Shown: positions 14,786 to 57,510 of the stretch, in pieces
Numbering within the stretch: position 1 is the first letter of the stretch
Layout of the letters: every line of letters begins with the position of its first letter
From: Apostichopus japonicus
Taxonomy: Eukaryota > Echinodermata > Holothuroidea > Aspidochirotida > Stichopodidae
Reading direction: 5' to 3'
Length of the DNA: 64,000 nucleotides
Assembly (NCBI RefSeq): GCF_037975245.1
Contig: NC_092582.1
Coordinates: 25,088,077 to 25,152,076, forward strand
Position numbers and translations under genes: made by a program
The notes under the pieces: generated by a model
Database searches by the model: none
Told to the model about the DNA's origin: nothing
What the model saw: the letters and a program-made list of their open reading frames with translations, nothing else

Positions 14786-14792
14786 GAAAATC

Positions 14793-14835
<43 letters not shown>

Positions 14836-14965: not shown

Positions 14966-15000
<35 letters not shown>

Positions 15001-15784: not shown

Positions 15785-15878
15785 ATCTCGACAATGGCAG
15801 CAACCAGCATCTGGGTCCTGTCAATTAGCTTGGCATTGTTGTCAATCGCTCAAGCTAAACCATGTCGCACCATCTGTG
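15785..15878 (+). CDS. Carrier gene exon 1: signal peptide (coding 15794-15878)
   Basis: The ATG at 15794 opens [20 protein letters not shown], a typical hydrophobic secretion signal with probable cleavage after the following Ala, then KPCRTIC. It ends in phase 1 at a good donor (G|GTAAGA). A polypyrimidine-AG acceptor (ttattcttctgcag) ends at 15784, so the exon may be preceded by a spliced 5' UTR exon that I cannot locate. Confidence 0.65.
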
Positions 15879-18800
15879 GTAAGACTTGACCTTGATTCTG
15901 TACTGTTGTGTTTGCACAACTTTTATGTAATAAGTTCTCCGTTCCACTTTCTTTCTTTCTTTATTGGGAGGGGGGGGCGGCGGTATTTTCTTCACTGTCA
16001 CCCATTCAAAGCTTCTTTTTTTTTTGTCTTGACTGGTTGGGTCTTAGTGTTTTGGAAAGTATTAATAATATATACACGTTTTTTTTTGGTCTTTATAAAA
16101 AAAAAAAATTAATTTTCTTCTTTAATTCTTGCTATGATAGACAAAAGCAGTATAAGTCAAGTTCATCATCTGCATTGTTATGCATGTTGCATATCTTCAA
16201 ATTTTCTCCTTTAATTCTTGCTTTGATAAACAAAAGCATTACCATTCAAGGTCATCATCTGCATTGTTATGCAAGTTGCATACCTTCAAATTCTCTGCGT
16301 GCTTAACCTATCTACTCTGCATGTCTGCACTCTCATATATGCACCATCATGAATGGATTGTCATCAGCACAGGTGGTGAAATAACGTTGAAAAAATTCCA
16401 ACCCATAGTCCTTCCAATACTAAAGTAAGATGATTGATGCTCGAATGCCTTAAGTTGGGTGTGAAAGAGGAACAAACTGACGGCGTAAAGGGGTGGGAGG
16501 GGGCATGGGAGACGTACGTAATGACTGATTTTAAACTATACTTTTAAAAGAGAGTACGGTTGTGGAGAGGAGACATGTAAGTGTTGTGGACTTTAAATGA
16601 GACACAAACCCAGCCATCATAAATGGTCTATACGTGATAAAGATAACCGTCTTGAAGAACTGAGTCCCCATACAGCTTAGGAAAATATTATTCATGTTGA
16701 GAGAGATCTCGGATTCAATGTTCCTTTACATACAAGGACGAAAACTTGGTCAAGTCTAAAATTTGACATCATCGAGCCAAAAGTGCTCCATTTTTTTCAA
16801 TGTGTTTTTTTTTTTTATCAATTACAATATATATCTTATGTAATGAAATTGGGATTTGCAAATGCCGCTGAATATCAAACGTTGTGTAGCTCTTGACAAG
16901 ATCTAGTATAGTTACTTTTGTATCAATTTCAAGACTGTTCTAACATGTTACGATGAAACTGTGAAAAGAAAATACGGAGATCACGAAAAGTGTTTTCTAA
17001 ATCGTAGTGGTTTATGATGTTATAGATTTACAAGCTACCGGCGGCTGACAGACACGAATTTTAAACTAGGATATCTCCCTAACAGACGAAGATTTTTGGG
17101 GGGTAATATTATGTGTAGGCCTATGATGGGGTAGTTTGTTCTTTGCAACAGTGGCGTAGGAAGGTACTTTTGAGGGGGGGGGGGCTGAAGACTAGTGGCC
17201 GGCCTGGGGTAGGGGTCTAAGGGGAGGGGGTGTCCCCCTCCCCCTTTGGATTTTTTTTTGTATTTCCAGGTGGCCTCAGATGCAATTTGGTGCTCCAAAT
17301 GAGATTTTTTTCTCATTTGGAAATGAAAAAGGGGTTTTCTGACTTGCGAAGCGGGGGGGGGGGCGGAATGATACTTCCGCCCCTCCATATTTTGCACTGG
17401 GGGCTGGCGCCCCCCAGCCAGCCCCCGGTTCCTACGCCCTTGCTTTGCAATATAAGATGTAAACGATGTTTGGGTTTGTGTCCCGGCAGCAGAGAATTAA
17501 CGTTATTCAATAATACCACGTCTGATTCCATACGCACAGATGACCAAAGCCCCGAGTTAACCGAATACGTCGAACGGTCCTTAGAAAGAGGGATACGATG
17601 GCTACATCGCCAACAGTTGGAATCGGAGAATTTCAACCGGGATACCTTGCAGGGTTTGTTCGCGCTGCAGCTGAGTGACCCAGAGTTTTACGGGGAGCTT
17701 CCCGATGAAAAGAGGCGGGTGCTACGCTCTCTTCAGGAACATGCAGTGATGACTAACTTGGCGCTTGCTAGACGGTGAGTATATTCTGTTGTTGTTCTTA
17801 TGCCTCTTCTAATGAAGGTTATGCTATTCCTTGTGTGTCGTCGTCAAAAGTTGGACTATCACATAAAAGAATAGGTTACTTGTCTGGATTAATTCCCTCG
17901 TTAGAGACTTCATCAATCAATAGCTTACCCCCCCCCACCCCACTCCAACTCCCCACCCGAATGATTACATCTAGAGAATGTTATACATTGAAAGATATTC
18001 TCATCGACAAAGTATGTCCACTGAAGTGGATAAACTCCTTATACAAATGAAGCAGTGGCGGAGCGTCCATACAGTCAGGGGGCGGATGCCCCCCCCCCCC
18101 CCCCGACGGACTCAAATGGACTGCTGGCGCCCTTTTCAGCTTTTTACCACTTTTTACTTATTCGCGATTATTGACTTTTTTATTGCGATCTCATCTACCT
18201 ATTGACATTTGTCACATTTTGTTGATGTAATTTTCTGACAAAATGGCGAAGACACCTATTTATTCTTCGTTTATCTGCAAATTAGCAATGACCGGAAAGG
18301 GTCATTTCCGGCGATCTAGAGTGTATCTTTACTCAATTTTTTTTTTTTTTTTTACGCTTCGCGCCAACCAATGGTGTGGCTCCGCTTAGATAGTGTGGAA
18401 AGCGCCCCTACAGACCATTCTCGCCCCCCCCCCCGACCAATACCCCTAGCTCCGCCACTGAAATGAAGAATGGTGAAGAATGGTTTCCACCACTTCTTGT
18501 GTACGTATACCATCAGGCCCTCAACTACCCTTCGTTACATACTATTACTAAATATTTAAAATCAACAGAAAATGTTGCATCAGTGATCGATTCTCTTTCG
18601 ATGATTTGATCTTCTTTGCTTTTGAGTCATAATTTCCAATTCTTTCACTGTTACAGGACGGGCGAGCGAGGTCGTAATTCGGTGCCGTATTTTGACCCGT
18701 TACTGTTCGCCCAGCAGTTGCTGACAATGGAAGCGACATGCATTGATACCACTGAATTCTACGGGCAGGACCTCCAGGAGCACCTCACCACGATAACTAA

Positions 18801-19112
18801 AGAGTTCCCAGAACCAAACTTTGACAATCTGTTTCAATTTGCTTTCTCTTTGCTCCCAATCTGTACCTCCGGTTCCGAGTTTTACGAAAAAGCCTGGTTG
18901 AAACTTCTTTCTGTCAGAGATGAAGAACGCCCATGCGCAGTTGTGTCATTTGAGGATTTCGACGGACCTAGGCAACAGTTTGCTGGTAAATTAATGGCGT
19001 CTCATCGTGGATAATGTTATCACAAGTTAATTTATTAGTATAATAAAACACAACTAATTCAGTCAGTGTATTTGCACCTAAACTTGCGAGAAAAGTCGAG
19101 TAATCCGTCACT

Positions 19113-19162
<50 letters not shown>

Positions 19163-22100
19163 CAAACTTCAACAAGGCGTTCCACTTCCACATCAAAGCA
19201 TTTGCCTTTAACTCACACACCTTCATCTAGGCTTTGAAGCAGGGGGCAGAGAAATCTTTAGGAATAGGAATGTGTTTTTGCTTAGGATACAGAAAACTAG
19301 GGAGCAATTGAAGCCTTAAACAGTATAAACGCGATACCCAGTGTTGTGAATGCTTGTGGCCGCACAGGTTTCCCGTCGCAGCGTTGAAAATACGTGTACT
19401 TATAGCGACTTTACGATTTATCAAAACTTGGATCTCATTTTCCCCCTTCTGTGTTGTAGTAATCAATCCACCCACATGTTGCGTATCCGCAAACGATCGT
19501 ACTTTTTGCATGCAGGTACCAAGCACGTTGAACCATTTTAATTGGATACAGTGTTTTATAGTCTGGTTTATATGTCTCTTATCGGGTAATTCAATAGGAC
19601 CTACTTTATACTACGTCTTTAGCCTATCTCATTGAAACTATTACATTTTTAATCCACCAATAAAGATTACAGAAGAGGTCGCTCTTGCACAACAAAGTTT
19701 AGACTTTGCAGCTACGTGTAATATACGTCAGAGGTCTTCGAAAGGATACATTTGTAGCTTGTTACTTGTTGTTTATAATGTGCAGTCAAAGAGTGCTCCA
19801 GGCTGAATGTTTGAATATCAATAATTGCCAGGCACTCAAAATTAGTGCACGTTTGTTTTTATACATTTCAGTGGGCTCTTGAAAAAACACGATTACATTA
19901 GGGAATGTTTCACGTGGTACCAATATAATTTGCCCAAAGTTTCTGCACAATTTTCATACCCCTGTCCCCACCCTACTGATTCCGAACCCCCCCCCCCTAC
20001 CAGACTGTGTCGCCTATGTATGATGACTTTGTTATTCCTTTCCAACAGCTCACACAGTGGCGACATTATCTATGCTAGTGATGGCACTCAAGTGTGCAAA
20101 GGATCAAATTCCCGAAGATTATCAGGAAGTGTACCACAAACGAGTATACGACTACTCAAGCTGTATCGCTGACTACCAGAATGAGACAAACTATGGATTT
20201 GGTGGCAGCGTTCAGGCTACTGCAATGGCTGTCCAGGTTAGTCACACGCCCTCTAGTTAATCAAATCAACTGAACGGTCAAGGGCAGGAACAGTGAGATT
20301 TTATAGGGATAAGCTTTGTAACGTTTCCACAGTGAAATGTTATGGGACTGCGGCATACGTCACAATGTCAAGAGCATTGAAATAATTTTGATCTCAATTT
20401 GTCAACTAATTACATTTAAATCAGTACGGTGAAGTCACAAAAACGCATTACAAGTTTGTCAGTTTTTTTTCCCTGTGTTTTGTTGTAGTAAATTTCCTTT
20501 GCGTGAGAAACGGGACCGACTGCTAGTGGAACACAGTGATTTATGCGTCCTCTCAGGACCAACAGAATCAAATTTTCTAATGCATGTTTTGCGGGGTGTC
20601 TTTGTGTCTTTACTTACGGTCTTGGGTCCAGTGCTTGAGGTTTTCTTGTATACATCAACGCAACACACACAAAATTGAGTATGGAACGCCAAAACGATCA
20701 CAGTTTATTATAATAATGGAAACATGCACGATGGTAAAATAAAATTACACAATGATAACGATATCAAGCATTTTATGATACACAGGGGTACACTGAGATT
20801 CTCAACGACCTTTTCTTATAGGGGGGGGGGGGAGGAAGTAATGTTCAGCGCGGAAGGTTCTAAGAGGATGGAGCCTCTCTACATGTCTATTAGATAAAGG
20901 AACTCTACTGTATATTTACATGATATAGCGTCATCGAATTAAAATACCCGTCGCGGCAACTCCCGCTACTACTATACATACTATATACTATATGCATACT
21001 ATACTGTGTGATACTGATAAGCGACACGATGACACACATGCAATGAACTGATTTCTGCTGGTAAACGACCGGCCGGTCGTACCCGGAATCATGAAGTATG
21101 GTATCTGAATACGTGATACACAAGCCTGACGATGACAGTCGATTCAGTCCACACAATTACTGTATGTATATAGGCCTACATGCAAAGCGGGCTGGGTACG
21201 TTGAAGGCGGATCCGTCGTATGATTTCCAAGTTCTGCCTTGGGTTTCTCTTCTTAAAAAAAAATACCCGTGTGACGTAATCATTTTAGAAGCAAAATTGT
21301 ATAAACATGTTTCAAACTTTGCAAGCATGTAACTATTTTTAGTTTACAACAGTTTTAACTTATAACGGGAATTGTGTACGGAGTGGTAGGTTTATGCCAA
21401 GAAACCATATACGCGCGAAGAACGGGTCATACTAATTAGCGCAAACTGCTGTGCTAGTGCTAAGCCTAACACTAAGAACAGTAACACTACAAAAGATGAC
21501 CCTTGCGACACAAAGTTAAAATAGCGAGTATTAGGAGTAACGTAACTTACAAGTTACAGTACTGTAGTGTCAACTGGTAGTGGTACAGTAATTCTTCTTG
21601 GTGGCATACCTTAAACTTAAAGTTACGGTAGGCATACGTAGCATAGTAAATTCAAGGTACCAAATGTGACGCGTTTTTCTGGAAGTTTCATGATCTTATC
21701 ACCGTAAGAAGCAACGGAAGGCAAATCGAATTAGGCCTAGGCCTAACAGATTTTGGCCTAGGCTACGCCTACTAAAAAGTACTATATATTCGGGCAAGGC
21801 CTAGATTGATTTGAAGTATAGGCCAGCAGATAATAGGCCTATACAATACAATAGTTACTGATTGTCAGGTTCTTGCAGATCTCTTGAACAACTCTTTTGT
21901 GTCAGTTTTTACAAGGGAAGATATTCGGAGTAGTATTCCAAGTTTTCAGAGGGGAAGTATTACCAGTACGCAGTAGTAGGCCTAGTGCTGAAGTTTCATT
22001 AATCTCACTCAAATTTGTAAACCTAAGTTGTGACTACTACTATCAAAACAACACTCAGGCAGTTTGTCAGCAAACATCGCAAAAGTACAGATTCTCACAA

Positions 22101-28100: not shown

Positions 28101-29873
28101 TGTTTCAGTTCTTAATTGATTGTTAGTTGACTTACTGTGTGTTTCAGTTCTTAATTGATTGCTAGTTGACTTACCGTGTGCTTCAGTTCTTAATTGATTG
28201 TTAATGTACGTACCGTGTGTTTTAGATCTTGTTAATGTCTACTGGGAGAAAATGACCATTGACTTTCTGCTGTAACTGGCAAACAGCGATAATTAAAAAT
28301 TCAATGGCCTTTAAACCAGTAATTAGTCCATATTTTAAGGCCCTGCAGTATGAGCTGCATCATGTGCTATATGGCGGACCGTTTAGCCCTACTTTGGCAC
28401 CCTCTATATTTCTATTGTCCTGCTGCATTTGTCTGACCGATCGATCCCACCGTTCCATTTCTTCGGGGTTCATACTTGTTTGGTTGTAAGTGTGTGTGTT
28501 ACACTGTCTGCTATTGTATCATTCCCTGCACTGCCTGCAGGCTAAATGCCATAAATGTCTAAAATCACTTTTCTTGGATAGATTCGCTGCCGCTCCATTC
28601 ATCTTCTTCAACAAAGGCGGATTTTACCCGATTTCTGTTAATGGTGTGAGCGTCGACAAGGAGAACAACTATTTCTGGGTGATTCATGCTGGCATAGGAC
28701 CGATGGGCGGAGGGCCGATGGGCGGAGGGCCGATGGGCGGAGGGCCGATGGGCGGAGGGCCGATGGGCGGAGGGCCGATGGGCGGAGGGCCGATGGGCGG
28801 AGGGCCGATGGGCGGGGGAATGATGGGCGGGGTAATGATGGGTGGGGGAATGATGGGCGGAATGATGATGGACGGAGGGCCGATGGGTGGAGGGCCGATG
28901 GGTGGAGGGCCGATGGAGGGAGGGCCAATGGGTGGTGGGCCGATGGGTGGAGGGCCGATGGGTGGAGGGCCGATGGGCGGGGGAATGATGGGCGGGGTAA
29001 TGATGGGTGGGGGAATGATGGGCGGAATGATGATGGACGGAATGATGATGGACGGAGGTCCAATGGACGGAGGGCCGATGGACGGAGGGCCGATGGAGGG
29101 AGGACCAATGGTCCAATTTACTCCCCAGCCAACTAGTAAGAATTGTTTATTATTTATCATCAAATTTAAGTGAGTGTTAGTGTGACTGATGGAGGAATAT
29201 GTCATAAGATCATTATATCCTTTTATTTTTGTTTTCAGGCAGCAGTGATCCACACTAGCCAATGCTTGGGTAACAAATAGGGGCAGAGATATTCTAACAT
29301 TGCCACAGACTTTAATAGCATTCATGTACACATTGACTTTTTCAGATGAAAGGTTTGGCTATAAAGATTGTTGACTATTCTCCTAATTAACATTTAACTC
29401 TGATCTTAGTCCTATAGTCTCTAAATGAGTTTTCTTTGTTGGTAATTATCATTATTCTGGTACACTAATTAAACTCACACAACAATTAAGCTCATTAACA
29501 TAGAGTGCTCCAGTTTCATTTCAGGAAGTAGAATTTCATAAAGTGGAATTCAAAACCTTTGCAGGTTTTCCAACTTTGGATGACATGTTTTGTCACACTT
29601 GACACGTGAAAGTGTCTTGGGGAAGAACTGTTGAGAACTGAATGAATTCTTGCTACTCGCTCTTCAACCTTTACAGTTAATTAATCATGAATCCTTCTAA
29701 AAGGAATGTCTGAGAATCAGTTTTAAGAGTTTTCTTTTAAAGTATTACTAAGTCATAAATTGTAATTTTTGAAAATAAAAAATGGAAAAAAGTTGAACAT
29801 CTTGATATCTAAAATCCCTCTCATCCAAGACCTGGAGCCATGAAGCTACCTTACTGTCTCTTGGTATACATAT

Positions 29874-29954
<81 letters not shown>

Positions 29955-29957
29955 TTT

Positions 29958-29996
<39 letters not shown>

Positions 29997-30637: not shown

Positions 30638-30668
<31 letters not shown>

Positions 30669-39599: not shown

Positions 39600-39634
<35 letters not shown>

Positions 39635-43929: not shown

Positions 43930-43993
<64 letters not shown>

Positions 43994-44031
43994 TATGTAT
44001 ATATATATATATGTATATGTATATATATATA

Positions 44032-44079
<48 letters not shown>

Positions 44080-50000: not shown

Positions 50001-51823
50001 GTGCTGTGGTTTTGACAAAGTAACAAGACAATTTTGCTTTTGGAATACCAACAGGATGTTTAATATTATATTAGTGTTATTTTAGTTTAGTTTAGTATAG
50101 ATATTTTAATTAATTTAATGAATTATATGTATTTATTTATGTATTATATGTTTTTTTGGGGGGGGGGAGGAGGCTAAAGTTTAAGCAGAACAGCTTTTCT
50201 TGGGTTATTAAATCTAGCAGTTTTCAAAAATTTCATTTTGTATCATCCATACTCTCATTCCTCATTAATCTATATCTTTTAGAAATTTTTTTATTTTTTA
50301 TATTCCCACATGCTCCATCCACATTTGTGTAAATTTCTGCTTGATCTTTTCCCCTCCGACAGTTTCAGCTTCTCGAAAGTTGGATTTTTCAACGTAGTCG
50401 GATATTTCCTTACCTCAGTTAACGGGGTCCAGAATGATCCTGAAAACTTCCAATTCTGGGTCGTCGTTGATCCAACCGAGGAGAATGGAAGAGGATTAGG
50501 ACAGATGCCAAGAGGACAACTCACCAAGCCCATCGGTAAAACAGAATCTCCTATTATTCCTTGCATCCAAATATTCACTTGAATTACTGTAGTGGAAAGG
50601 TCTAGCTCGGGTACCTCTTGTGGTGGTACAAAGTTGATCTGATTGGGCCGCCGTGCAAGTCTGTGCCTCATACTCAGGCAGCTACACTTATTGTTGCACC
50701 TACTACGGTCTACTGTGACTAAATATGGGGGGAGCATTATTTAATGTGGGCAATTAAAAATGGAAACGTTCTCTTTTTGCAGTGTCCATCTGTTTTTTAA
50801 ATTATCCTGTCTCAATTAGGCCCTTCATATATACTCTCTCCCCAAAGTGTACATTTTATATAGAATATATATAGAAGAAGTAACAAACCACAGGGTGACT
50901 TGGTCATCCTTTACAGGGTCATTTTGGAGGAGTTTTCTCATTGTTATAAACTTGGTCAGTCATACCACAGCTGTAGGGCAGGAATAAACAGACTGTCCTC
51001 TCGTTGGCCGTTTCTGAACCACTTTGGAATCCTGGGACAAGAGTGAAGTTTGTAAATGCAACTGAAATGTGATGGCAGCTTTTCATCACCTACAAAAAAA
51101 GCACCAGTTTTCAACATGAGTTTTTCTTTTCCATCATTTCTTTTCCATCATTTGAAAGAAGGTTAACTTGTGAACTTGTTGGACTGTTTTTTTAGTATCA
51201 TAGTAAAAAATTTCATGCAAATAAATGCAAATTCTACTTGAAAACTGTAGGTGACATAAATAATTCATGAATTTCGATAAAATGGAGAATATTTAAATTT
51301 AACTCGCCATGATTTTCTTCTCTCTCTTTGTATTTGTTGTTGTCATGGCAGGGCTGGAAGAGTACATCCCACGTCCTGGATTCCCGGTTGTTTTAGCCTT
51401 TAAAGACTTGAGTGCCTTCAGGGCGGATATGGAGTTTCTAGGAAACAGTCGTAAAGAATTACCCAAGGACATTGAGGCCGGAGACCAGACCATTAACTTC
51501 AATCTCCGTATTTATAATGGCATCACCCAAATGGGTCAGTCGTACAATTTGACTATCATCGACGGAGAGACCCTGCTCGAAGCCTTCGTGAGAGCCTGGA
51601 AGAATCCTGAGCTTGATTTCAAGTGAGAACAACTTTTTGGTCACTTTTGGTTAAGGCAGAAAGTGTGACGTGACTTGCTCAAAAGATCAAACTTTTTTTT
51701 TTTAAATTTTCTTGACCCTCCACCAATTTGTAGGCAAGTTAAATAGATTCATCTTTTTCTGTTCCATTCGTTTGTGATGAATTTTTGAAGTTTAACCATG
51801 CATGCTTTTCGGATATCACATCT

Positions 51824-51895
<72 letters not shown>

Positions 51896-52507
51896 AACCT
51901 GTTAACAGATGAGGATATGTTTGGGTGAAGTTTTCAATATTTTTGGGTTATGTTTAATGATTATTCTGCAAAAGATCAGGACCATTAGTAATGACCATTC
52001 TAGTCAATTATGTCTTTGCTCCTTCAATGTCTTTTCCCAGTCAACTTTTCTGTTATTTGTTTTCTCTTAGTTATTTTAATATCGAAAATATCATGAATGG
52101 TATTCTCTGTGAGTGTGTGCATTTTCTTTACCCTTCCCTTCAGCTTCCTGGCACTGCCTATGGAATTCTTTGGGACCTTTGGTATCTTCATCAAGGGTAT
52201 CAATGGTATTGCCAACTGTGAGGACAATTTGTATTTCTGGTTTGTCAAGAGGATGAATGGTAGAGACGACGATCCCATCAGTAACCCTGTCTGTGAGTAT
52301 TATCAGTTGGAGGGGGAAGGGGAGGAGAGGGGGGAAGAGGGGGAGGGGAGTGATATTTACGGATGGTAAGGATCCTACCAGCTTGTGCAAAGTACGTTAT
52401 CTTTGGTTCTTTTCGTGGTATGTGAAAAATGAACCATATTAGATATTATGATTCAGTTTCCAAACCGACCATTGAGCTAGTACATCAATCATGTGGTTCT
52501 ATAGTTG

Positions 52508-52542
<35 letters not shown>

Positions 52543-52961: not shown

Positions 52962-53013
<52 letters not shown>

Positions 53014-56000
53014 ATAGCTGTGTATATATATAGTGTACTGATGCAATGGTCTTGTGATGTCAGTGGCACATAGAACCATCCACAGACTGTGAGGATAGCT
53101 TGCAAACGTGTAACCGCAGAGAAGGGTAACCCGTCCGGTATCACCTTCCTAAGATATACAACTATTTTGTTATCATCCAGACTTTTATCTCGCAATTTGG
53201 GATTCTTCGCGGGTAATACTAACAATATAAAGGAGATACCAGATTGGTTCACATTTCATGAGACATTTAGTTGTATATTATTTGGAAGTTGATAGTGTTA
53301 ACTAAGTTAAGAAAAAAACTAAATCCCATTTTTTTCTTTTCTTTTTTGTATGTAAGTAAGACATATTGTCAGATTGTACATATCTCATTTTATTGATGTT
53401 GTAATACCAAAATTTCATGAACATATATATTACTTCATTTCATAAACAGCAGAAATAGAAGAAATGATATCAATATATTGTCATTTCGTTGACAACGATT
53501 TTATAAATGGTTAATTTAGATTTTGGCATCTGGCAATCGAGCAAAATCATGGCAAATTGTTCAAAGGCGCTAGTGTACCATAGCGTGTACAACTTAGCCT
53601 TGGTCATTGGTAACTTGTCACACCTACACACCAAAGTGTGCGCAATTCAATCAATCTCTCCTGGGGCACCACAGTGCACCACAACCACGTGTCCCCCGGG
53701 GGACTTCCCATAGGGTGCAGCCACAAACCAGCGCACGTAACTATATTACAAGTTACCTCGCAAGTCCCCATTTATACACTTGGGTGAAGAGAGGCAATGG
53801 AGGATAAAGTGCCTTGCCAGGACACAACGCAATGATCTGGCCAGGGTTCCAACCTGTAATTCTTAGATCACCAGTCCACTACCTTAACCACTTGACCACA
53901 ACGTCCCGTTACATATATGGATAACAGTCTGATGCTTGTTCTCTTGTGCAGCATGCACTTTCTGTATATTGTTCTTTGGTTATAATGATTTATTTATATT
54001 TCACATGTAGTTAATAACTCCATCATACTTTTGACAACATATTCCTGGTGGATCCTCCTCTGTGGTTGCCTGGCGATATTTTTTACCTCAAAGCGTTAAA
54101 GAAAGGTTTGATAGTACTGGAATCAAAAAATCTCTACAGTTACAAAGACAGGATTTGAGTGTCGCTGGGTTAGCTTCCTGTAGTTGCTTCAATTTTAACT
54201 GGAATTTAAAATTTGAAACTTGGTAGTTGTGGTATTAACCAAGCATGTGTTTTTACAACAAGTCTTACCGTGTACCAAAGATATGTAGCCTACAAAGTTT
54301 CCTTCTCGCTGTGCTATAATGACAGAGTCTTTTACTGGAAATTAATGTGATGCTATTAATTGGTCGTTAATATCTTTCGTTGTGATGATTATTACTATTT
54401 GTTTGTTCGTTATAAAGCTTTGACTGAATTCAACCCTGTGGACGGAGAAGATGTCCACGTAGTGTTCAACGACTTCAGTCCCTACAGAGAGGACATTGAA
54501 TATCTGTTAAGACATCTGAGGAACCGGGAAAGAGGAAGGTTCACTGGATACGACAGAGAAGAGGAGGAAGAGGAGGAGGATGAGGAGATGGGGTACTTGC
54601 CTTTTGTGATCGAAGACAACTCTGAATCGCTCAACTTCAGCCTGGTTGTGTTTAACAATCTCACTGGAGAGTATGGAGTGTTTAACCTGACCATACTCGA
54701 GGGAGAGAATCTGCTACATGCAATGTATAGAGCTTGGAAGAATCCAGATATTGATTTCAGGTAAGTGTTGTCAAAACTAAATAGAAGGTTGTGTAGGCCA
54801 GAGGGTTGCATACAACCATGTACAGTAACTTGTTAGTTAAAGGCTACAGCAGTGATACTAATAAGCAGAGGTGTGCTTGGTATGAATTGCGATAGGTCTA
54901 GACCATGGGTTCCCTAACTGGGGTGCACAAAACCCCAGGGTGTGTGTGAGTCCATACAAGGGGGGTTCGTGAGACATTTCTGTAAGTCAAAACTAGAGTA
55001 CTTTTTGTTGAACTAAAATCTGATATATCATATTATTCGTTCCATACGCAGATGTTGCCATAGTAGTACCGTACCGTGCATGTGATAAATAACTGAATTA
55101 TGATACTGACACAGGCCGTATGACTTTGGAGAAGTTGGTGTCAGCATGACAGTACAATATTACACTATGAACTTGATCTTTTACGAAGCACTGTTATACG
55201 TATTATAGTATAATAATGGCTAAGATCATGTCTTGAAAAGTTGGTGGTTCGTGGACAACTCTGACATCCACAGGGGGTTTGTGGGGGGGGGATAAAGTTA
55301 GGGAAACCCTGGTCTAGACAAAGCATTCATATTTACTTTTTAAAACAGACATTTTCCCAAAATTTTAAGCATTTCTTGACAACATTAATGCAACTAAATC
55401 ACAACATATATGTCCTGCATGTGTCAGCGATGATAAGCGACATAGTATCCAACCCCAAACCACTCTAACGGATATACTCTTCAATTGGGTTTTCACTATG
55501 CAGCTTTGGTGCGGCCCGTTTTACACTCTTTGGGAAGTTTGGTATGTATCCAGTGTCCGTCAACGGTTTGGCGAATGACCACCAGGCTTTCAACTTCTGG
55601 CTGGTTGAGAAGTACCAGTCGTCGAAAGATGAGATGACCGGCGACAACGGTCCACTGGGTAAGCAGTTTACTATTTGATCATTCGTAAAAGTTATTAGCA
55701 ATACCAGAAACTCTTCATTGGGGGGGGGCGGGGGTGGGAGGGATGGTAGAGTGAGTAGTTGCAGAGGGAGCTGTGTCTTTTTGTAAGAAAAAAAAAGTGG
55801 TTCCGCTAAACACTTATAGTCAGGGTCGTTTTTTTTTTCCCCTTTTATCTCTTATTTTGCCAAATTACAATCATATTTATTTCTAGTGAGTGATTATTTT
55901 TATTTTATTTTCTTCTACAGGGTTGATAGATGCTGTCCCTTACCCTGGAGATACATATACTTTGGTCTACGTTGATCTCAGTGACTACAAAGATGATCTT

Positions 56001-57510
56001 GTACCATCTGAACTACCGGCAGATATAGACCCAGAAACGGACCAGACCCTCACCTTTACTCTCTACATTGTCAACAATGTCACTGAGAAGCACTGCGGCT
56101 TTAACCTCACTGTCATTGAAGGAGAGAATCTCCTCGAGGGCTTGAAACGTGCTTGGAAAGACCCGGAAATTAATTTCAAGTAAGCCTATAACTTAGCATT
56201 TTAGATATTAACTTACGATCTTCCCTGCCAACAGCAAATACCACCCGAGACCCCTGTTTTGGGCCGAAAACACAGGGGAGATTGAATATCTACTGGAGTT
56301 GGTAATGCTAGCCATACAGGAATGCTCCCCTGCACAAATTCATGATTAAACCTCACAGTGTACTATGTCAGTGGTCGAGCCAAACTTGTCTTGACACACA
56401 GGAAAGTAGTGCTGGCCATTAGAGCACTTGTGGTTTACAATCATACAGGTGACTGGTCAATTAATTACGTGCACTCAAGGATGAATCCTAATAGCAGTAT
56501 TTGGGGTAGTTTATGCTATCAAGTCACAATTATTAATGCTGGAGTGAATTTGAGGAGCACTGTTTTTCTATAAGCAGGCTTGACCATCACCTGTAAGCCT
56601 ACCTCCTTATCATTGTAATTGCAATTTGGCTCTTTGTTTGTTTATTTATGATATTTTTTATATATTTATTTGCCTGGGGGTGGGGATGGGGGTGGGGGTA
56701 ATTAGGCTTGCCTGATAAATGCAAAATATCCGTTGCTTGTATTACAAACAGAGGTTTATTGATATTTTCTTGTTTTATGGCTTCCAGTTTCCAAGTAGAA
56801 GTTTTTAGCCTGGTCGGATATTACGGAGCCTTCCTGACGTCAGTCAATGATGTTAGGAATGACATGGAGAACATGTACATATGGTTGGTGGTGCAACAGG
56901 AGCAAAGCCAAGGGATTGTAGACATGACCTCTTGGGGTGATCATCAACCTTTGGGTAAGGAAACAACATTATTGCTATTGATAACGAAACTTAATCGCCA
57001 TCTTCTGAAAATTATGGTCATGAGGAGGGGGTGGGGGCAGGGGCGTCCATTTGAGATTATGCATGCATTTGGTGTTGACCTCTTAAAGGACCAGACTATC
57101 AGTGTAATCTCTACATGATATCTGAGCTGGACCAGAGTATAATTCAGTTTCATCTCTAGATGAGAAATTTGTCATTCTGTAATGAAGTGGCAAACTAGAA
57201 CTGGACAATATAATAAGTTTCATCTCTCGATGGAAACAGTTTTATTCTGTGTTTGAGAATTTCCAGCTGGGCCTCGACAATATCTTTCTCCAGCTGCATA
57301 AAACTGTTTCACTCATAATAACAACACCCATAATATATATTCATCAGTATTTGATATTTCTTTCATGTTCTTTTGATATTCACAGGAGTGACAGATGTGG
57401 TTCCCATGGCTGGGTACAATATTTTCCTCATCTACAAAGATCTAAGCCCCTATTCTGACCTGTTTGGAGAAGGCGACGAAGAGATGCACATGTATGGTCG
57501 ACAGGGGTAG
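15794..57510 (+). CDS. Giant transcobalamin/intrinsic-factor-like secreted protein with 14 tandem beta modules (33 exons; whole gene)
   Basis: Joining the 33 exons listed below gives 7,278 coding nt (about 2,425 residues). Order: signal peptide (1 to about 21), cobalamin-binding alpha-alpha barrel (about 29-362), linker, then beta modules D1 (380-489), D2 (490-757, Gly/Met tail), D3 to D13 (758-2384) and a truncated D14 (2385-2425). In vertebrate carriers one barrel and one beta domain clamp one B12 molecule in secreted fluid. The barrel and beta modules here resemble that family in order and motif, including an invariant Trp per module (for example YFWLV-like strings). Binding of B12 by the extra modules is not shown. 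Every complete module is 3n nt long with phase-1 outer introns. N-glycosylation sequons recur. It could instead be two overlapping transcription units ending at 29258 and 57510. Confidence 0.85.
15879..17148 (+). other. Intron 1 with an 86-90 bp tandem duplication
   Basis: Two adjacent copies of a segment (16117-16207 and 16208-16295) contain catcatctgcattgttatgca and a following cttcaaatt. Otherwise no feature is seen. A small missed exon here is possible, because the exon 1-2 junction is not fully settled. Confidence 0.6.
17149..17442. mobile_element. hAT-like MITE, 294 bp
   Basis: The ends CAGTGGCGTAGGAA and TTCCTACGCCCTTG are imperfect inverted copies (12 of 14 match), flanked by a perfect 8-bp duplication ctttgcaa at 17141-17148 and 17443-17450. 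It sits about 50 bp upstream of exon 2. Confidence 0.8.
17495..17774 (+). CDS. Carrier gene exon 2: start of the cobalamin-binding barrel
   Basis: It encodes ELTLFNN... then helices such as [28 protein letters not shown] and [10 protein letters not shown], as in the first helices of the transcobalamin/intrinsic-factor barrel. It ends in phase 2 at CG|GTGAGT. The start is the weak point: the upstream sequence is cagcagag, and only the AG at 17493-17494 keeps frame with exon 1; starts at 17490 or 17493 meet a stop at once. Either this third AG is used or a small exon is missing in intron 1. Confidence 0.75.
18053..18460. mobile_element. hAT-like MITE, 408 bp
   Basis: Inverted ends CAGTGGCGGAG / TAGCTCCGCCACTG with a perfect 8-bp duplication aaatgaag (18045-18052, 18461-18468). 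The interior has an inverted copy of the ggcgcgaagcgta subrepeat also found in the 6718-8639 element, so they belong to one family. It lies in intron 2. Confidence 0.8.
18657..18985 (+). CDS. Carrier gene exon 3: cobalamin-binding barrel, middle
   Basis: After a ctttcactgttacag acceptor it reads [20 protein letters not shown], then helical stretches including [23 protein letters not shown] and [10 protein letters not shown]. Cysteines at EATC, PIC and RPC are candidates for the disulphides that brace this barrel in vertebrate carriers. The exon runs from phase 2 to phase 1 with donor GCTG|GTAAAT. Direct continuation to a stop at 19014 would need intron retention. Confidence 0.85.
18986..20048 (+). 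other. Intron 3 with a (TA)n tract
   Basis: Contains a TA microsatellite at about 19114-19160 and an ordinary polypyrimidine acceptor (ttcctttccaacag). No gene or transposon recognised. Confidence 0.6.
20049..20236 (+). CDS. Carrier gene exon 4: cobalamin-binding barrel
   Basis: Reads [20 protein letters not shown], the family's helix with small residues and a Cys (compare the ...ALTC helix of intrinsic factor), then [10 protein letters not shown] and [14 protein letters not shown]. The GFG/TG-type turn followed by QATAMAVQ is the recurring inner-helix pattern of the barrel. Phase 1 to phase 0, donor CAG|GTTAGT. Confidence 0.88.
20237..22908 (+). other. Intron 4, mostly unassigned
   Basis: 2.9 kb intron, counting the LINE fragment at its end. 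A poly-G run occurs near 20820. Around 21700-21860 are repeated taggcct palindromic motifs. An open stretch at about 22030-22255 has no recognisable protein features. No exon of the carrier gene is missing here, since exons 4 and 5 join in frame. Confidence 0.5.
22909..23144 (+). pseudogene. Non-LTR retrotransposon reverse-transcriptase fragment (broken)
   Basis: Reads LNVSKAPG, then after a +1 shift [16 protein letters not shown] and PLSLVF, then after further breaks TGDV. This is the conserved K-x-PGPD-x-IHP...PL..IF...G-x-(V/I)P run at the start of LINE (Jockey/CR1-like) reverse transcriptases. Frameshifts and stops show it is dead. It ends directly at the 3' splice site of exon 5. Confidence 0.75.
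23145..23348 (+). CDS. Carrier gene exon 5: end of the cobalamin-binding barrel
   Basis: Reads [20 protein letters not shown], then [12 protein letters not shown] (the family's 'xGxF' turn) and [16 protein letters not shown]...VDC, matching the last helices and final Cys of the barrel. The acceptor is taken at 23143-23144 (tctccaaag). The donor at AAG|GTCATA (23349) is chosen over the better-looking G|GTAAGG at 23335 because only it lets exon 6 continue in frame to the beta domain. Phase 0 to phase 0. Confidence 0.78.
23589..23640 (+). CDS. Carrier gene exon 6: linker
   Basis: A 52-nt exon after tacttattttag encodes [17 protein letters not shown] and the first base of a Cys codon, ending at T|GTAAGC (phase 1). 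The alternative frame gives a stop straight after the donor. It corresponds to the flexible link between barrel and beta domain in vertebrate carriers. Confidence 0.7.
23680..23810 (-). mobile_element. tRNA-derived SINE head
   Basis: On the - strand, 23808-23742 reads like a tRNA: an A-box-like TTAGCTCAATGGTTAACGC and a B-box GGTTCGAGTCACTCCC, with GGAGTG/CACTCC able to pair as an acceptor stem. The anticodon arm folds poorly, so it is a tRNA-derived SINE rather than a working tRNA gene. The left end of the body is uncertain. Confidence 0.6.
24261..24441 (+). CDS. Carrier gene exon 7: beta module D1, first half
   Basis: After atattcccag it reads [20 protein letters not shown], then [30 protein letters not shown] and ENDF. 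This is the first half of the DUF4430-type beta domain (strand - turn - GE-x-LL-x-AL helix). It lacks the roughly 30-residue DG..V.LVYVDLS leader seen in D2-D13, so D1 is the closest in form to a normal B12-carrier beta domain. No N-glycosylation sequon here (FEVAT). Phase 1 to phase 2. Confidence 0.85.
24889..25037 (+). CDS. Carrier gene exon 8: beta module D1, second half
   Basis: Reads [37 protein letters not shown], then an acidic tail and LGLI. It has the GVFLTSVN strand pair and the invariant Trp. Acceptor gtgctcttttacag, donor ATAG|GTTCGA, phase 2 to phase 1. Reading through the donor gives a stop at about 25160, which could only matter if the intron is retained. Confidence 0.85.
25499..25610. 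repeat. G-rich tandem repeat (gggaggggtaggta)n
   Basis: Short G-rich array in the intron before exon 9, with several runs of four or more G, so G-quadruplex formation is possible on this strand. Confidence 0.7.
25799..26048 (+). CDS. Carrier gene exon 9: beta module D2, first half
   Basis: Reads [49 protein letters not shown] and [18 protein letters not shown]. It is the first module with the added leader (L-x-x-x-x-P-x-x-G-x-x-x-x-LV(Y/F)-x-D). The usual N-(V/L/I)-T sequon is replaced by IEVRV. Acceptor cttctctcaag, donor AC|GTAAGC, phase 1 to phase 2. Confidence 0.88.
26111..28226. repeat. 39-bp tandem satellite, about 54 copies
   Basis: The unit tgtgtttcagttcttaattg followed by a 19-nt second half ending gacttaccg is repeated with few variants (tgct/tgtt, accg/actg, gttag/gctag/gttaa). 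It starts about 60 bp after exon 9 and fills most of the intron inside module D2. Every unit contains a splice-acceptor-like tgtgtttcag. Confidence 0.97.
28582..29135 (+). CDS. Carrier gene exon 10: beta module D2, second half, with Gly/Met-rich tail
   Basis: Reads [37 protein letters not shown], then an in-frame repeat tail of about 140 residues made of [20 protein letters not shown] and GPMDG units, ending PQPTS. The first part closely matches module D6 (PF-x-x-FNK-x-G-x-x-PIS). The tail is coded by a 15-bp minisatellite (28697-29110) whose middle block is duplicated. Acceptor ttttcttggatag, donor A|GTAAGA in phase 1. Confidence 0.82.
28697..29110 (+). repeat. 15-bp coding minisatellite (Gly-Pro-Met-Gly-Gly)
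   Basis: Units like gggccgatgggcgga in tandem, with a higher-order duplication of the block containing the [21 protein letters not shown] variants. All units are multiples of three, so frame is held. Long ORFs in the other frames are by-products. Confidence 0.92.
29239..29258 (+). CDS. Alternative last exon of the carrier gene (short isoform end)
   Basis: After a good acceptor (tttttgttttcag) the phase-1 donor of exon 10 can join here, giving S-S-S-D-P-H and a TAG stop at 29256-29258. The resulting secreted protein would have about 763 residues: barrel, two beta modules and the Gly/Met tail. Exon 10 can equally splice to exon 11 (both supply GC after A), so this looks like an alternative terminal exon. 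It could also be the true end of a separate gene. Confidence 0.6.
29774..29779 (+). promoter_or_regulatory. Polyadenylation signal AATAAA for the short isoform
   Basis: AATAAA about 515 nt after the stop at 29258, in an A+T-rich 3'-UTR-like stretch with no carrier exon in between. Confidence 0.5.
29865..30055. repeat. (TA)n microsatellite
   Basis: TA runs with scattered cata and gata interruptions. The hAT-like element at 30056-30636 is inserted in it. Confidence 0.95.
30056..30636. mobile_element. hAT-like MITE, 581 bp, inserted in TA repeat
   Basis: Inverted ends CAGGCCTCGACAAA / TTTGTCGAGGCCTG followed by matching subterminal ggtcgcca...ttggcgag segments. The flanks gtatatat (30048-30055 and 30637-30644) agree over 8 bp, although the TA-rich site weakens that evidence. 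No ORF of transposase size. Confidence 0.7.
30694..30964 (+). CDS. Carrier gene exon 11: beta module D3, first half
   Basis: Reads [59 protein letters not shown] and [14 protein letters not shown]. The (R/K)(R/K)EL-x-(K/R)DI motif with F(L/V)R(L/A)WK marks it as the same type as D7 and D11. It carries NFT and NVT sequons. Acceptor tcttgacttttcag, donor AT|GTAAGT, phase 1 to phase 2. Confidence 0.9.
31393..31529 (+). CDS. Carrier gene exon 12: beta module D3, second half
   Basis: Reads [40 protein letters not shown] and IPL. The GRYGLF and Y(N/S)DPR motifs recur in D7. The acceptor aatacag has a poor pyrimidine tract but is the only one that preserves phase. Donor CTCG|GTGAGT. Confidence 0.85.
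31918..32239 (+). CDS. Carrier gene exon 13: beta module D4, first half, acidic insertion
   Basis: Reads [20 protein letters not shown], then a run of Asp/Glu with a few Arg/Gly (about residues 22-50 of the exon), [35 protein letters not shown] and [18 protein letters not shown]. The acidic insertion sits where D8 and D12 also have one. NVT and NIT sequons present. Acceptor tttacaatttcttcag, donor AC|GTAAGT. Confidence 0.92.
32365..32905. repeat. 51-57 bp minisatellite, about ten copies
   Basis: Each unit contains ggtccaacacatgtctg and tattatctgttgga followed by a variable run of G and A. It lies in the intron splitting module D4. The ORFs found on both strands are repeat by-products. Confidence 0.93.
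33109..33257 (+). CDS. Carrier gene exon 14: beta module D4, second half
   Basis: Reads [40 protein letters not shown] and ending SDPQ. The NGLAN motif is shared only with D8 and D12 (D9 has N-Y-LAN). Acceptor ctgtgtttgtag, donor CAAG|GTGAGT, phase 2 to phase 1. Confidence 0.9.
33301..33677. repeat. (GGGA)n polypurine tract, about 380 bp
   Basis: A nearly pure gggagggagg run, with rare aatgga interruptions near its ends, beginning about 45 bp after exon 14. It is a long mirror-symmetric purine tract with a G-quadruplex-type pattern. The Gly/Arg/Glu ORF through it is not a gene. Confidence 0.97.
33680..35111 (+). other. Intron 14 remainder
   Basis: A+T-rich with a poly-C run near 34853. No exon, RNA gene or transposon recognised. 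The acceptor for exon 15 is cattcatttctcgacaag. Confidence 0.55.
35112..35370 (+). CDS. Carrier gene exon 15: beta module D5, first half
   Basis: Reads [49 protein letters not shown] and [18 protein letters not shown]. The GLKRAWKD end and (A/S)ELP turn match D13, and in weaker form D9. One NIT sequon. Donor AC|GTAAGT. Confidence 0.92.
35573..35730 (+). CDS. Carrier gene exon 16: beta module D5, second half
   Basis: Reads [39 protein letters not shown] and ending YQPL, like D13 (HQPL). Acceptor cttttcattaacag, donor TTGG|GTAATA. The exon end plus donor is tandemly copied twice in the following intron (35770 and 35837). Confidence 0.9.
35703..35880 (+). repeat. 67-bp tandem duplication of the exon 16 end and donor site
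   Basis: Copies begin gatgac(c/t)tggt or gatgacctag at 35703 (exon), 35770 and 35837, each ending ...ctattggg|taata like the true donor. The spacing is exactly 67 bp both times. Use of a decoy donor would add a stop soon after the true exon end. Confidence 0.88.
35882..36348. repeat. 38-bp minisatellite, about 12 copies
   Basis: Unit caggcactgggcctagttta followed by cattcaccctctccatag, with gcactggg/gccctgga variants alternating. Fills most of intron 16. Confidence 0.93.
36497..36764 (+). CDS. Carrier gene exon 17: beta module D6, first half
   Basis: Reads [51 protein letters not shown] and [18 protein letters not shown]. It resembles D2 (LN(D/E)(L/V)(E/K)P, LVF(V/F)D). The module sequon is lost (YQVET), but NNVT remains. 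Acceptor cttgcgctttgcag, donor AC|GTGAGA. Confidence 0.92.
37072..37235 (+). CDS. Carrier gene exon 18: beta module D6, second half
   Basis: Reads [42 protein letters not shown], an acidic stretch, then FVPI. PF-x-x-FNK-x-G-x-x-PIS(V)(N/Q)G and W(V/L)(I/V)H are shared only with D2. Acceptor ttgatctgcag, donor ATTG|GTAAGT. Confidence 0.9.
37236..37902 (+). other. Intron 18 with a short ata-rich tract
   Basis: A tataatata-rich stretch at about 37660-37760; otherwise plain A+T-rich sequence. Confidence 0.6.
37903..38176 (+). CDS. Carrier gene exon 19: beta module D7, first half
   Basis: Reads [55 protein letters not shown] and [17 protein letters not shown]. The RREL-x-RDI and FVRLWKD motifs match D3 and D11. 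The sequon is lost (YDVT). Acceptor gtttattttgtatag, donor CA|GTAAGT. Confidence 0.9.
38474..38712 (+). CDS. Carrier gene exon 20: beta module D7, second half, Asp/Ser-rich tail
   Basis: Reads [37 protein letters not shown], then about 35 residues of Asp/Glu/Ser repeats (DEDSDDSDD type), then RIAIL. GRFGIF and YSDPR match D3. The Asp-Ser run is coded by a short gatagtgatgat repeat and is very acidic; it resembles phosphorylatable or calcium-binding acidic tracts in secreted proteins, without a specific match. Acceptor cttttgacttcag, donor TTAG|GTAAAG. Confidence 0.88.
38820..39115. repeat. About 97-bp tandem repeat, three copies
   Basis: Units contain cctctacagtgaatgattca, taggtagttagtaatacctt and attcagtaggtaagacctc. 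Each copy includes a donor-like agtaggtaagac. Confidence 0.85.
39116..39949 (+). other. Intron 20 remainder
   Basis: A (TA)n run at about 39602-39630; nothing else recognised. A polypyrimidine acceptor (atttctgtctccag) precedes exon 21. Confidence 0.6.
39950..40247 (+). CDS. Carrier gene exon 21: beta module D8, first half, acidic insertion
   Basis: Reads [20 protein letters not shown], an Asp/Glu/Arg run, [35 protein letters not shown] and [18 protein letters not shown]. It is the closest relative of D4: same acidic insertion, same Cys-Asp-x-Thr-Ala motif, same EHDGFN(V/L)TIIEGENLL string. Two sequons. Donor AA|GTAAGC. Confidence 0.92.
40442..40789. mobile_element. hAT-like MITE, 348 bp
   Basis: Inverted ends CAGTGGAGTCAC / GTGACGCCACTG with a 9-bp identical flank ggagtaccc on both sides (40433-40441 and 40790-40798); 8 of these are the likely target duplication. 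Located in intron 21. Confidence 0.8.
41379..41515 (+). CDS. Carrier gene exon 22: beta module D8, second half
   Basis: Reads [39 protein letters not shown] and ends SSLL. The NGLAN(N/D) motif is shared with D4 and D12. Acceptor gattatttttgtag, donor CTAA|GTGAGT, phase 2 to phase 1. Confidence 0.9.
41516..42900 (+). other. Intron 22, first part
   Basis: No exon, RNA gene or ordered repeat recognised; short chance ORFs only. Confidence 0.5.
42920..43460 (+). repeat. 117-bp tandem repeat carrying copies of the exon 23 acceptor and start
   Basis: The string ttttagccctcactgaggt plus the next ten or so bases of exon 23 occurs at 43081, 43198 and 43315 before the true site at 43432, each exactly 117 bp apart; a diverged copy lies at 42922. 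Only the last copy continues as open reading; the others reach a TAA within about 60 nt. Confidence 0.9.
43434..43695 (+). CDS. Carrier gene exon 23: beta module D9, first half
   Basis: Reads [51 protein letters not shown] and [24 protein letters not shown] and (D/E)GL(L/K)RAWKD match D5 and D13. One NVT sequon. Acceptor tttctatctttttag, donor AG|GTAAGT. Confidence 0.92.
43924..44150. repeat. (TA)n microsatellite
   Basis: TA runs with cata/gata interruptions in the intron that splits module D9. A shorter TA run follows exon 23 at about 43700-43724. Confidence 0.95.
44343..44509 (+). CDS. Carrier gene exon 24: beta module D9, second half
   Basis: Reads [55 protein letters not shown]. The invariant Trp is present; the SVNG motif has become AVNY. 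Acceptor gctttcttaacatttaaag is weak but phase-correct, donor ATCT|GTAAGT. Long ORFs in other frames and on the other strand over this exon are shadows. Confidence 0.85.
44761..48751. repeat. 47-bp tandem satellite, about 85 copies, with higher-order duplications
   Basis: Unit cagattgtggactaggtttc plus catgggtactcagaataaaa and ccattta. Variants (taccc/tactc, aataca/aataaa, taaca/ttaca, short 45-46 bp units) recur in blocks: two segments about 423 bp (9 units) apart share variant order near 46391/46814 and 46579/47002, and two rare variants (tacaaattgt, tagactatgt) recur at a spacing of 1268 bp (about 27 units). Fills most of intron 24. Confidence 0.97.
48752..49219 (+). other. Intron 24, 3' end
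   Basis: A poly-G run near 49062; otherwise plain sequence ending at the acceptor tttttgcaattttag. Confidence 0.6.
49220..49478 (+). CDS. Carrier gene exon 25: beta module D10, first half
   Basis: Reads [52 protein letters not shown] and [18 protein letters not shown]. Position in the block and the KP...V(V)(K/R)LV(Y/F)-x-D start put it with D2 and D6, but it is the most diverged of that class (IKYHES in place of IEGEN). One NVT sequon. Donor AA|GTAAGT. Confidence 0.9.
49479..50362 (+). other. Intron 25
   Basis: A ttttggggggggg run near 50155 and short A+T-rich repeats; no gene or transposon recognised. Confidence 0.55.
50363..50535 (+). CDS. Carrier gene exon 26: beta module D10, second half
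   Basis: Reads [40 protein letters not shown], a Gly/Arg/Gln stretch, then LTKPI. Acceptor cttttcccctccgacag, donor ATCG|GTAAAA. The 148-residue ORF on the opposite strand over this exon is a shadow. Confidence 0.9.
50536..51351 (+). other. Intron 26
   Basis: No ordered repeat or gene seen. The acceptor for exon 27 is gttgttgtcatggcag. Confidence 0.55.
51352..51622 (+). CDS. Carrier gene exon 27: beta module D11, first half
   Basis: Reads [56 protein letters not shown] and [16 protein letters not shown]. The RKEL-x-KDI and AFVRAWK motifs put it with D3 and D7; TQMGQ(S)YN(L)T also echoes [10 protein letters not shown] of D3. One NLT sequon. Donor AA|GTGAGA. Confidence 0.92.
51829..51892. repeat. 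(TA)n microsatellite
   Basis: Pure TA run in the intron splitting module D11. Confidence 0.95.
52144..52292 (+). CDS. Carrier gene exon 28: beta module D11, second half
   Basis: Reads [50 protein letters not shown]-x-G-x-(F/Y)G(I/L)FI-x-GI matches D3. An unpaired Cys (ANC) is unusual among the second halves. Acceptor tttacccttcccttcag, donor GTCT|GTGAGT. Confidence 0.88.
52507..53033. repeat. TA-rich minisatellite with tagttgtatagtctatagttg
   Basis: About a dozen units of a variable TA run plus tagttgtatagtctatagttg. Strongly self-complementary. Located in intron 28. Confidence 0.93.
53560..53908 (-). mobile_element. tRNA-derived SINE
   Basis: On the - strand the right end reads GTGGTCAAGTGGTTAAGG (A-box-like), a turn ggactggtgatctaag, and GGTTGGAACCCTGG (B-box-like), followed by a body of about 250 bp with tgtcctggcaaggcacttta. 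This is the usual plan of a tRNA-headed SINE, with internal pol III promoter boxes. The 5' end is near 53905; the 3' limit is uncertain. Confidence 0.75.
53909..54417 (+). other. Intron 28, 3' part
   Basis: Nothing recognised before the acceptor of exon 29 (gtttgttcgttataaag, weak). Confidence 0.5.
54418..54760 (+). CDS. Carrier gene exon 29: beta module D12, first half, acidic insertion
   Basis: Reads [46 protein letters not shown], a Glu/Asp run, [33 protein letters not shown] and [16 protein letters not shown]. The acidic insertion and the LTEF-x-P...VHVV(Y/F)-x-DF start match D4. Three sequons, two in the last third. Donor AG|GTAAGT. Confidence 0.92.
54904..55311. mobile_element. hAT (Charlie-type ends) MITE, 408 bp
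   Basis: Ends CATGGGTTCCCTAACT and AGTTAGGGAAACCCTG are inverted copies (14 of 16), of the 'CAGGGGTTCCCAAACT' type known from hAT/Charlie elements, flanked by a perfect 8-bp duplication gtctagac (54896-54903, 55312-55319). In the intron splitting D12. Confidence 0.82.
55504..55658 (+). CDS. Carrier gene exon 30: beta module D12, second half
   Basis: Reads [57 protein letters not shown] is shared with D4 and D8, and (R/L)FTL(F/V) with D8. Acceptor gttttcactatgcag, donor CTGG|GTAAGC. Confidence 0.9.
55921..56179 (+). CDS. Carrier gene exon 31: beta module D13, first half
   Basis: Reads [53 protein letters not shown] and [22 protein letters not shown] and GLKRAWKD put it with D5 and D9. Two sequons. 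Acceptor ttattttcttctacag, donor AA|GTAAGC. Confidence 0.93.
56180..56787 (+). other. Intron 31
   Basis: A short ggggtggggatgggggtggg tract near 56676; nothing else recognised. Confidence 0.55.
56788..56954 (+). CDS. Carrier gene exon 32: beta module D13, second half
   Basis: Reads [47 protein letters not shown]. The HQPL end matches D5. Invariant Trp present. Acceptor tgttttatggcttccag, donor TTGG|GTAAGG. Confidence 0.9.
57386..57510 (+). CDS. Carrier gene exon 33: truncated beta module D14 and stop
   Basis: Reads [40 protein letters not shown] and TAG at 57508-57510. It has the module leader only; the beta-strand, sequon, GE-x-LL helix and second exon are absent, and no further module exon is found to 61.5 kb. 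So the array ends in a broken module used as the C-terminus. A donor-like GG|GTAGAA overlaps the stop, so splicing onward is possible but unsupported. Acceptor ttttgatattcacag. Confidence 0.82.

Follow-up and report, generated by a model that had tools for sequence, protein, structure and literature searches.

A predicted Apostichopus japonicus protein that joins one transcobalamin-type barrel to 13 tandem beta domains

A single candidate gene of the sea cucumber Apostichopus japonicus appears to encode one transcobalamin-type alpha barrel followed by 13 tandem beta domains. To our knowledge, each animal B12 carrier described so far clamps a single B12 between one barrel and a single beta domain. 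The gene lies in a window of 64,000 nucleotides (assembly GCF_037975245.1, contig NC_092582.1, positions 25,088,077 to 25,152,076 of the forward strand), which is the whole stretch of DNA analysed here. Our preferred reading, held at even confidence, is of one gene for one secreted, probably N-glycosylated, acidic protein that would have descended from a B12 carrier and would act outside cells as a multivalent binding scaffold.

Results

Gene model and splice sites

Joining 32 exons on the plus strand between positions 15794 and 57510 gave 7212 nt in a single frame, comprising 2403 codons and a terminal TAG. In order, these are one signal-type exon, four barrel exons, 13 alternating A/B pairs and a final exon that closes with the TAG at 57510. 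This arrangement confirms the proposal of the initial annotation that a signal-type exon and a barrel are followed by two-exon modules in one frame. The single long frame of that annotation stood, while its length of about 2,425 residues became 2403 in the rebuilt gene. The exons are listed below, with D1 to D13 denoting the beta domains and TC transcobalamin.

15794-15878, plus strand: exon 1, start codon and signal-type peptide (signal judged by eye; join to exon 2 uncertain)
17495-17774, plus strand: barrel exon 2, weak GAG acceptor (MAFFT alignment with carriers, outside the hhalign span)
18657-18985, plus strand: barrel exon 3 (PF01122; hhalign)
20049-20236, plus strand: barrel exon 4, AHTVAT matching the TC HHSVDT region and GFGGSVQAT matching TC HFGNVYST (carrier alignment)
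23145-23334, plus strand: barrel exon 5 (carrier alignment)
24261-25037, plus strand: A1 (24261-24441) and B1 (24889-25037), D1, the canonical-carrier domain, its last strand in A2
25799-29135, plus strand: A2 (25799-26048) and B2 (28582-29135), end of D1 and most of D2; minisatellite in B2
30694-31529, plus strand: A3 (30694-30964) and B3 (31393-31529), end of D2 and most of D3
31918-33257, plus strand: A4 (31918-32239) and B4 (33109-33257), end of D3, acidic linker and most of D4
35112-35730, plus strand: A5 (35112-35370) and B5 (35573-35730), end of D4 and most of D5
36497-37235, plus strand: A6 (36497-36764) and B6 (37072-37235), end of D5 and most of D6
37903-38712, plus strand: A7 (37903-38176) and B7 (38474-38712), end of D6 and most of D7; Asp/Ser/Glu run in B7
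39950-41515, plus strand: A8 (39950-40247) and B8 (41379-41515), end of D7, acidic linker and most of D8
43434-44509, plus strand: A9 (43434-43695) and B9 (44343-44509), end of D8 and most of D9
49220-50535, plus strand: A10 (49220-49478) and B10 (50363-50535), end of D9 and most of D10
51352-52292, plus strand: A11 (51352-51622) and B11 (52144-52292, weak donor), end of D10 and most of D11
54418-55658, plus strand: A12 (54418-54760) and B12 (55504-55658), end of D11, acidic linker and most of D12
55921-56954, plus strand: A13 (55921-56179) and B13 (56788-56954), end of D12 and most of D13
57386-57510, plus strand: last exon, final strand of D13, short tail and TAG stop (beta-domain alignment)

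Run over all six frames of the window, an HMM of the A exons recovered 13 A exons and one short terminal A piece (E 0.0014), and an HMM of the B exons recovered 13 B exons, all of them on the plus strand; the best remaining frames had E values of 6 and 0.18, respectively. Every A exon can start in phase 1 and end in phase 2, and every B exon can do so in phases 2 and 1. Since the splice sites of the gene model were partly picked by phase, a phase-blind scan is the fairer test. That scan covered stop-to-stop frames and site scores above 2. The 26 A and B exons have 52 ends, 45 of which received a listed site, and in 37 of these 45 the best-scoring site was the one used. Scores below 2 were found for the donors of A1, A6, B1, B5, B9, B10 and B11 and for the acceptors of A2, A5, A12, B2, B3, B9 and B12, B9 being weak at both ends. 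The hydrophobic N-terminus encoded by exon 1 (15794-15878) is of signal type as judged by eye. Exon 1 can be spliced to exon 2 solely by way of a poor acceptor, GAG (17494/17495). A short exon between the two may have been missed, or the first exon may be a different one.

Repeats and surroundings

Exon B2 carries a 15-bp coding minisatellite (28696-29111; 27.7 copies) whose GPMGG-type units fall in the D2 loop that follows W377, and whose length may differ from one individual to another. In D7, the same loop holds a coding Asp/Ser/Glu run (DDSDDED; 38589-38689, exon B7), so this loop tolerates large inserts. Upstream of A9, a tandem repeat with a 117-bp unit (42889-43459) copies the A9 acceptor together with the first ~25 bases of the exon (ttttag, then CCCTCACTGAGGTAGAGCCAGAGGA) and thus forms a row of decoy acceptors; in a 67-bp tandem repeat (35703-35877) the end of B5 is copied with its donor site. 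The introns contain minisatellites at 26112-28230 (39 bp, 54 copies) and 44825-48752 (47 bp, 84 copies). A minus-strand frame of 672 residues at 26220-28238 passes two Pfam cut-offs (PF20844, 44.8 against 43 bits; PF14379, 35.6 against 29.1 bits) and was rejected as a gene, since it consists of the 54-copy, 39-bp tandem repeat. Among 20 open frames in the flanking regions (1-15000 and 58000-64000) no Pfam family scored above its cut-off, and scans of the window returned no Rfam match and no tRNA.

Beta domains and their number

From A2 onward, every A exon begins with a segment that aligns with the C-terminal end of the carriers (...ADYRPKDGETIELRLVSW). A domain therefore takes in the later part of one A exon, the B exon and the opening part of the A exon after it. 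Because the domains span the A-B-A exon borders, a lone A and B pair is not a whole domain. The last exon supplies the last strand of D13, giving an array of 13 complete domains with a natural end. The initial annotation had counted about 14 modules, the last of them partial. We rejected this broken fourteenth module, as the terminal piece corresponds in the alignment to the final beta-domain strand of the carriers and completes D13, which sets the count at 13. Where transcobalamin, intrinsic factor (IF) and haptocorrin (HC) have exactly one beta domain, 13 were counted.

Family membership

In a Pfam search of the joined protein, PF01122 matched the barrel at 31.0 bits (cut-off 25) over residues 144-325, which bears out the expectation of a PF01122 match on the joined exons. 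With hhalign, barrel plus D1 aligned with human TC, bovine TC, IF and part of HC at a probability of 95.1 and E 3e-8 over 307 columns, and a profile of all 13 domains, with D2 and D7 trimmed, aligned with the carrier beta domains at 95.3 and E 2.3e-8 over 98 of 105 columns, last strand included, both E-values being those for one pair of profiles only. These alignments support the homology of barrel and repeats to the transcobalamin family that had been claimed at the outset. The cut-off of DUF4430 (PF14478; 23.8 bits) was passed only by several domains summed, at 38.8 bits for D3-D7 and 43.2 bits for D8-D13. The first piece (D1 and part of D2) reached 14.7 bits, and 5 of 12 single domains matched at E up to 1, the best at E 0.018, the single-domain score shown being 15.0 bits. 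Neither PF14478 nor PF01122 matched any of ten single frames, seven of them with exons A1, A2, A5, A13, B5, B12 and B2 and two with barrel exons; the domains appear only after exon joining.

A PDB search with barrel plus D1 alone gave five matches, the best at E 0.22, with no carrier among them. The 12-domain profile gave eight, all at E of at least 0.10, including haptocorrin 4kki in the expected register (E 0.15) and bacterial 3u7z, which we take to be a DUF4430 protein (E 0.13). Six ion channels among the eight were taken as chance matches. Against prokaryote and viral contigs the domain profile yielded 24 and 64 pattern matches, respectively, and no relatives.

A period of four in the array

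We read the array as D1 followed by what would be three copies of a four-domain block (D1 + 3 x 4), the copies being old and blurred. Within D2-D13, identity was 0.429 at offsets of 4 and 8 against 0.373 at other offsets, a difference reached by 121 of 200,000 order shuffles. The A-exon lengths repeat with the same period (250/271/322/259, 268/274/298/262 and 259/271/343/259), a tightness reached by 213 of 200,000 shuffles, these tests being not fully blind since the period had been seen in the linkers beforehand. Acidic linkers precede D4, D8 and D12 and an RRELxKDI-like linker precedes D3, D7 and D11, linkers and exon lengths not being mutually independent as evidence. On the domain tree the four classes require four label changes (the least being 3), where shuffling gave a mean of 7.3 and 0 of 200 shuffles were as low. 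The tree groups D3/D7/D11 (92/95) and D2/D6/D10 (48/76). A D4/D8/D12 clade is absent from it, though not rejected (AU p 0.29), and a D5/D9/D13 clade is absent and nearly rejected (AU p 0.065), so a clean period-four tree was set aside; later exchange between domains may account for the D5/D9/D13 pattern. In the other tree run, IQ-TREE recovered both D3/D7/D11 and D2/D6/D10, and FastTree D3/D7/D11 only, with D10 beside D13. Identities of 28-52% between domains exclude a recent duplication arising in assembly.

The barrel and a candidate B12 site

The barrel keeps 20 of the 40 columns that are invariant in four known carriers, and D1, in the same alignment, 8 of 17 such beta-domain columns. All five TC cysteines examined are aligned in the barrel (C98, C147, C187, C249 and C291, which we take to be disulfide-paired in TC), the C291 column holding Cys in the two TC rows only. 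TC C3 is unaligned; exon 1 holds two cysteines. Carrier residues are replaced at D176A, Y137F, S227A, N267K and Q273L, and position 224, N or D in the carriers, is S; D176, N224 and Q273 presumably contact B12 in the carriers. The TNYYQ motif of the carriers (PMC4350170, in excerpt) reads DNLFQ in the barrel.

Human TC Q138 is kept, as Q182 of the barrel protein, and His233 aligns with His173 of human TC, a column in which bovine TC has V, with H one place earlier. His173 of human TC binds cobalamin (PMC4947154, in the part available), and this loop histidine is reportedly missing from IF and HC of most species (PMC11107200, in the part available). The B12 pocket of the barrel had at first been judged dead, a verdict withdrawn on finding His233 and Q182. 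A canonical sandwich around B12 could form only at barrel plus D1, a candidate site.

Conserved residues of the array

All 13 domains have an aromatic residue at position 362 (TC numbering here and below), and seven of the 13 have one at position 359; both positions are corrinoid contacts (PMC4350170, in excerpt). P386 is present in ten of the 13, and L387 and G390, invariant in the four carriers, in six and five, respectively. The loop before P386 differs widely in length, from a few residues up to the one in D2 with its GPMGG repeat of ~140 residues. The array retains the stretch that aligns with the ligand-contacting hairpin, four residues longer than in the carriers.

Other residues set the array apart. 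E335, R343 and D408 are present in all 13 domains and replaced in the four carriers, K346 occurs in 12 domains and, among the carriers, in haptocorrin only, and W345 occurs in 11. With E335, R343, K346 and D408 conserved in the array and not in the carriers, the array has its own signature; the helix-end motif R-A-W-K-D-P-E is its hallmark, of which D1 has only part. Such array-specific conservation suggests a contact or packing that would be shared within the array. Glycines stand at position 334 in 12 domains and at position 360 in all 13, and in our mapping they would be the two family glycines of the SLBB (soluble-ligand-binding beta-grasp) paper. An N-glycosylation-type motif (FNVTI type) recurs in 9 of 13 domains and aligns with NVTV of haptocorrin and NVSV of IF.

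Composition

Without the 21-residue signal, cut by eye, the chain would have a mass of ~267 kDa and a pI of 4.28. The whole protein contains 428 Asp and Glu against 181 Lys and Arg, and 23 N-X-S/T motifs. This acidic build and the low-complexity linkers lean towards an extracellular scaffold.

Discussion

Comparison with known systems

Like transcobalamin, IF and haptocorrin, the predicted protein has, in this order, a signal-type peptide, a PF01122 alpha barrel with conserved cysteines and a beta domain; the beta domain shares with theirs G360, W377 and the aligned hairpin stretch. It departs from them in having 13 beta domains instead of one and ~2400 residues instead of ~400, in its acidic and Gly-Pro-Met low-complexity parts and in the replacement of several invariant barrel residues. 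With the transcobalamin-like SLBB clade DUF4430 (PF14478) it shares the hairpin-aligned stretch after a helix and glycines 334 and 360; unlike that clade, it has a tandem array with its own R-A-W-K-D-P-E motif and single-domain scores that, where seen, fall below the cut-off. In the literature searched, mostly papers outside subscription, we found no animal protein that combines a barrel with an array of such beta domains, in keeping with the earlier statement that no described animal carrier of this design was known; annotated database entries may exist.

Bacterial polysaccharide export proteins are ring-forming channels. They belong to the Nqo1-like SLBB clade, are bacterial and lack a barrel of the carrier type, and they resemble the present protein in carrying tandem SLBB domains on one secreted chain, with one to eight repeats of the related domain (PMC1796856, in excerpt). 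Solo C-terminal transcobalamin domains of fish are likewise beta domains without a barrel of their own, there as one domain and here as an array (PMC1796856 and PMC4350170, both in excerpt).

A scaffold derived from a carrier, and its rivals

For this gene we infer secretion, glycosylation and a scaffold role. The ancestor would have been a transcobalamin-type carrier consisting of a signal peptide, an alpha barrel and one beta domain, now D1. Copying of the beta domain into a four-domain block, and of the block twice more, would have produced D1 + 3 x 4. Each SLBB domain would present a weak, open site, and many weak sites on one flexible acidic chain would confer avidity for a repetitive or abundant partner, candidates being a glycan, a mineral or a corrinoid-bearing surface, in the setting of mucus, body fluid or matrix. 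The tandem SLBB domains of the bacterial export proteins (PMC1796856) offer a precedent, and the IF or IF-like proteins reported from quail eggshell matrix (PMC4550075) and chiton radular tooth cusps (PMC6351634) would also fit. Several observations pull the other way. The aromatic residues at 362 (13/13) and 359 (7/13) fit corrinoid binding as well, and His233, as the counterpart of His173, favours a live B12 site in the barrel despite the bovine TC caveat. This reading is also weakened by the failure of D5/D9/D13 and D4/D8/D12 to form clades, by FastTree breaking D2/D6/D10 and by the weak join of exons 1 and 2.

One rival is a multi-site corrinoid trap, in which all 13 beta domains would hold corrinoid in the manner of haptocorrin and scavenge B12 and its analogues in gut, mucus or body fluid. 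The isolated beta domain of human TC folds alone and has been crystallised with cyanocobalamin and with cobinamide (PMC5599065, in excerpt), and the array keeps the hairpin-aligned stretch, four residues longer, P386 in ten domains and the aromatics at the contact positions 362 and 359 (PMC4350170, in excerpt). Set against this, one barrel for 13 domains leaves 12 uncapped, L387 and G390, invariant in the four carriers, vary, the loop before P386 is highly variable, up to the repeat in D2, 362 and 377 may be core residues and the array's own conserved residues differ from those of the carriers; we regard such a trap as unlikely. Slightly more doubtful is a purely structural or mineral matrix protein whose domains are spacers that have lost their small-molecule ligand, with the acidic linkers and the Gly-Pro-Met repeat binding calcium or mineral. 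The pI of 4.28, the acidic runs before D4, D8 and D12 and inside D7, the GPMGG repeat in D2 and the loss of D176, S227, N267 and Q273 from the barrel would all suit it, as would the reports of IF or IF-like proteins in quail eggshell matrix (PMC4550075, in excerpt) and, as a table entry, of an IF-type protein in chiton radular tooth cusps (PMC6351634, in excerpt), but the barrel homology, its five canonical cysteines, His233 and an aromatic residue at 362 in every domain speak against it. A step less probable again is that an animal lineage turned the one-site carrier into a polyvalent corrinoid-binding polymer, with one barrel, 13 beta cups, many corrinoids per chain and a three-fold four-domain unit.

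Barrel plus D1 make up a complete carrier unit with His233 in the place of His173, and both domains of IF are recognised by cubilin (PMC4947154, in the part available), so that the protein might be a working 1:1 B12 carrier to which the extra domains add only avidity for a receptor or mucus. The exchanges D176A, Y137F, N224S, S227A, N267K and Q273L, the change of TNYYQ to DNLFQ and the use by CD320 of the alpha domain of TC only (PMC4947154, in the part available) make us think this distinctly improbable. We give very little credence to the idea that several separate genes, or alternative transcripts, have been taken for one. It can draw on the many weak splice sites and on introns that reach 4.7 kb and contain large minisatellites, yet the 2403 codons run stop-free in one frame through phase-matched A and B exons, the domains cross the A-B-A borders and leave a lone A and B pair incomplete, and no second signal-type exon was noticed, on inspection short of a systematic search.

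Implications

A carrier-derived protein with 13 beta domains would mean that this domain can serve as a modular building block. It raises the testable question of whether an uncapped beta domain binds corrinoids, glycans or nothing. If corrinoid binding has been kept, the protein would represent a new means by which an animal holds B12 or sorts it from its analogues; if it has been lost, the array would mark a route from a vitamin carrier to a protein of the extracellular matrix or mucus.
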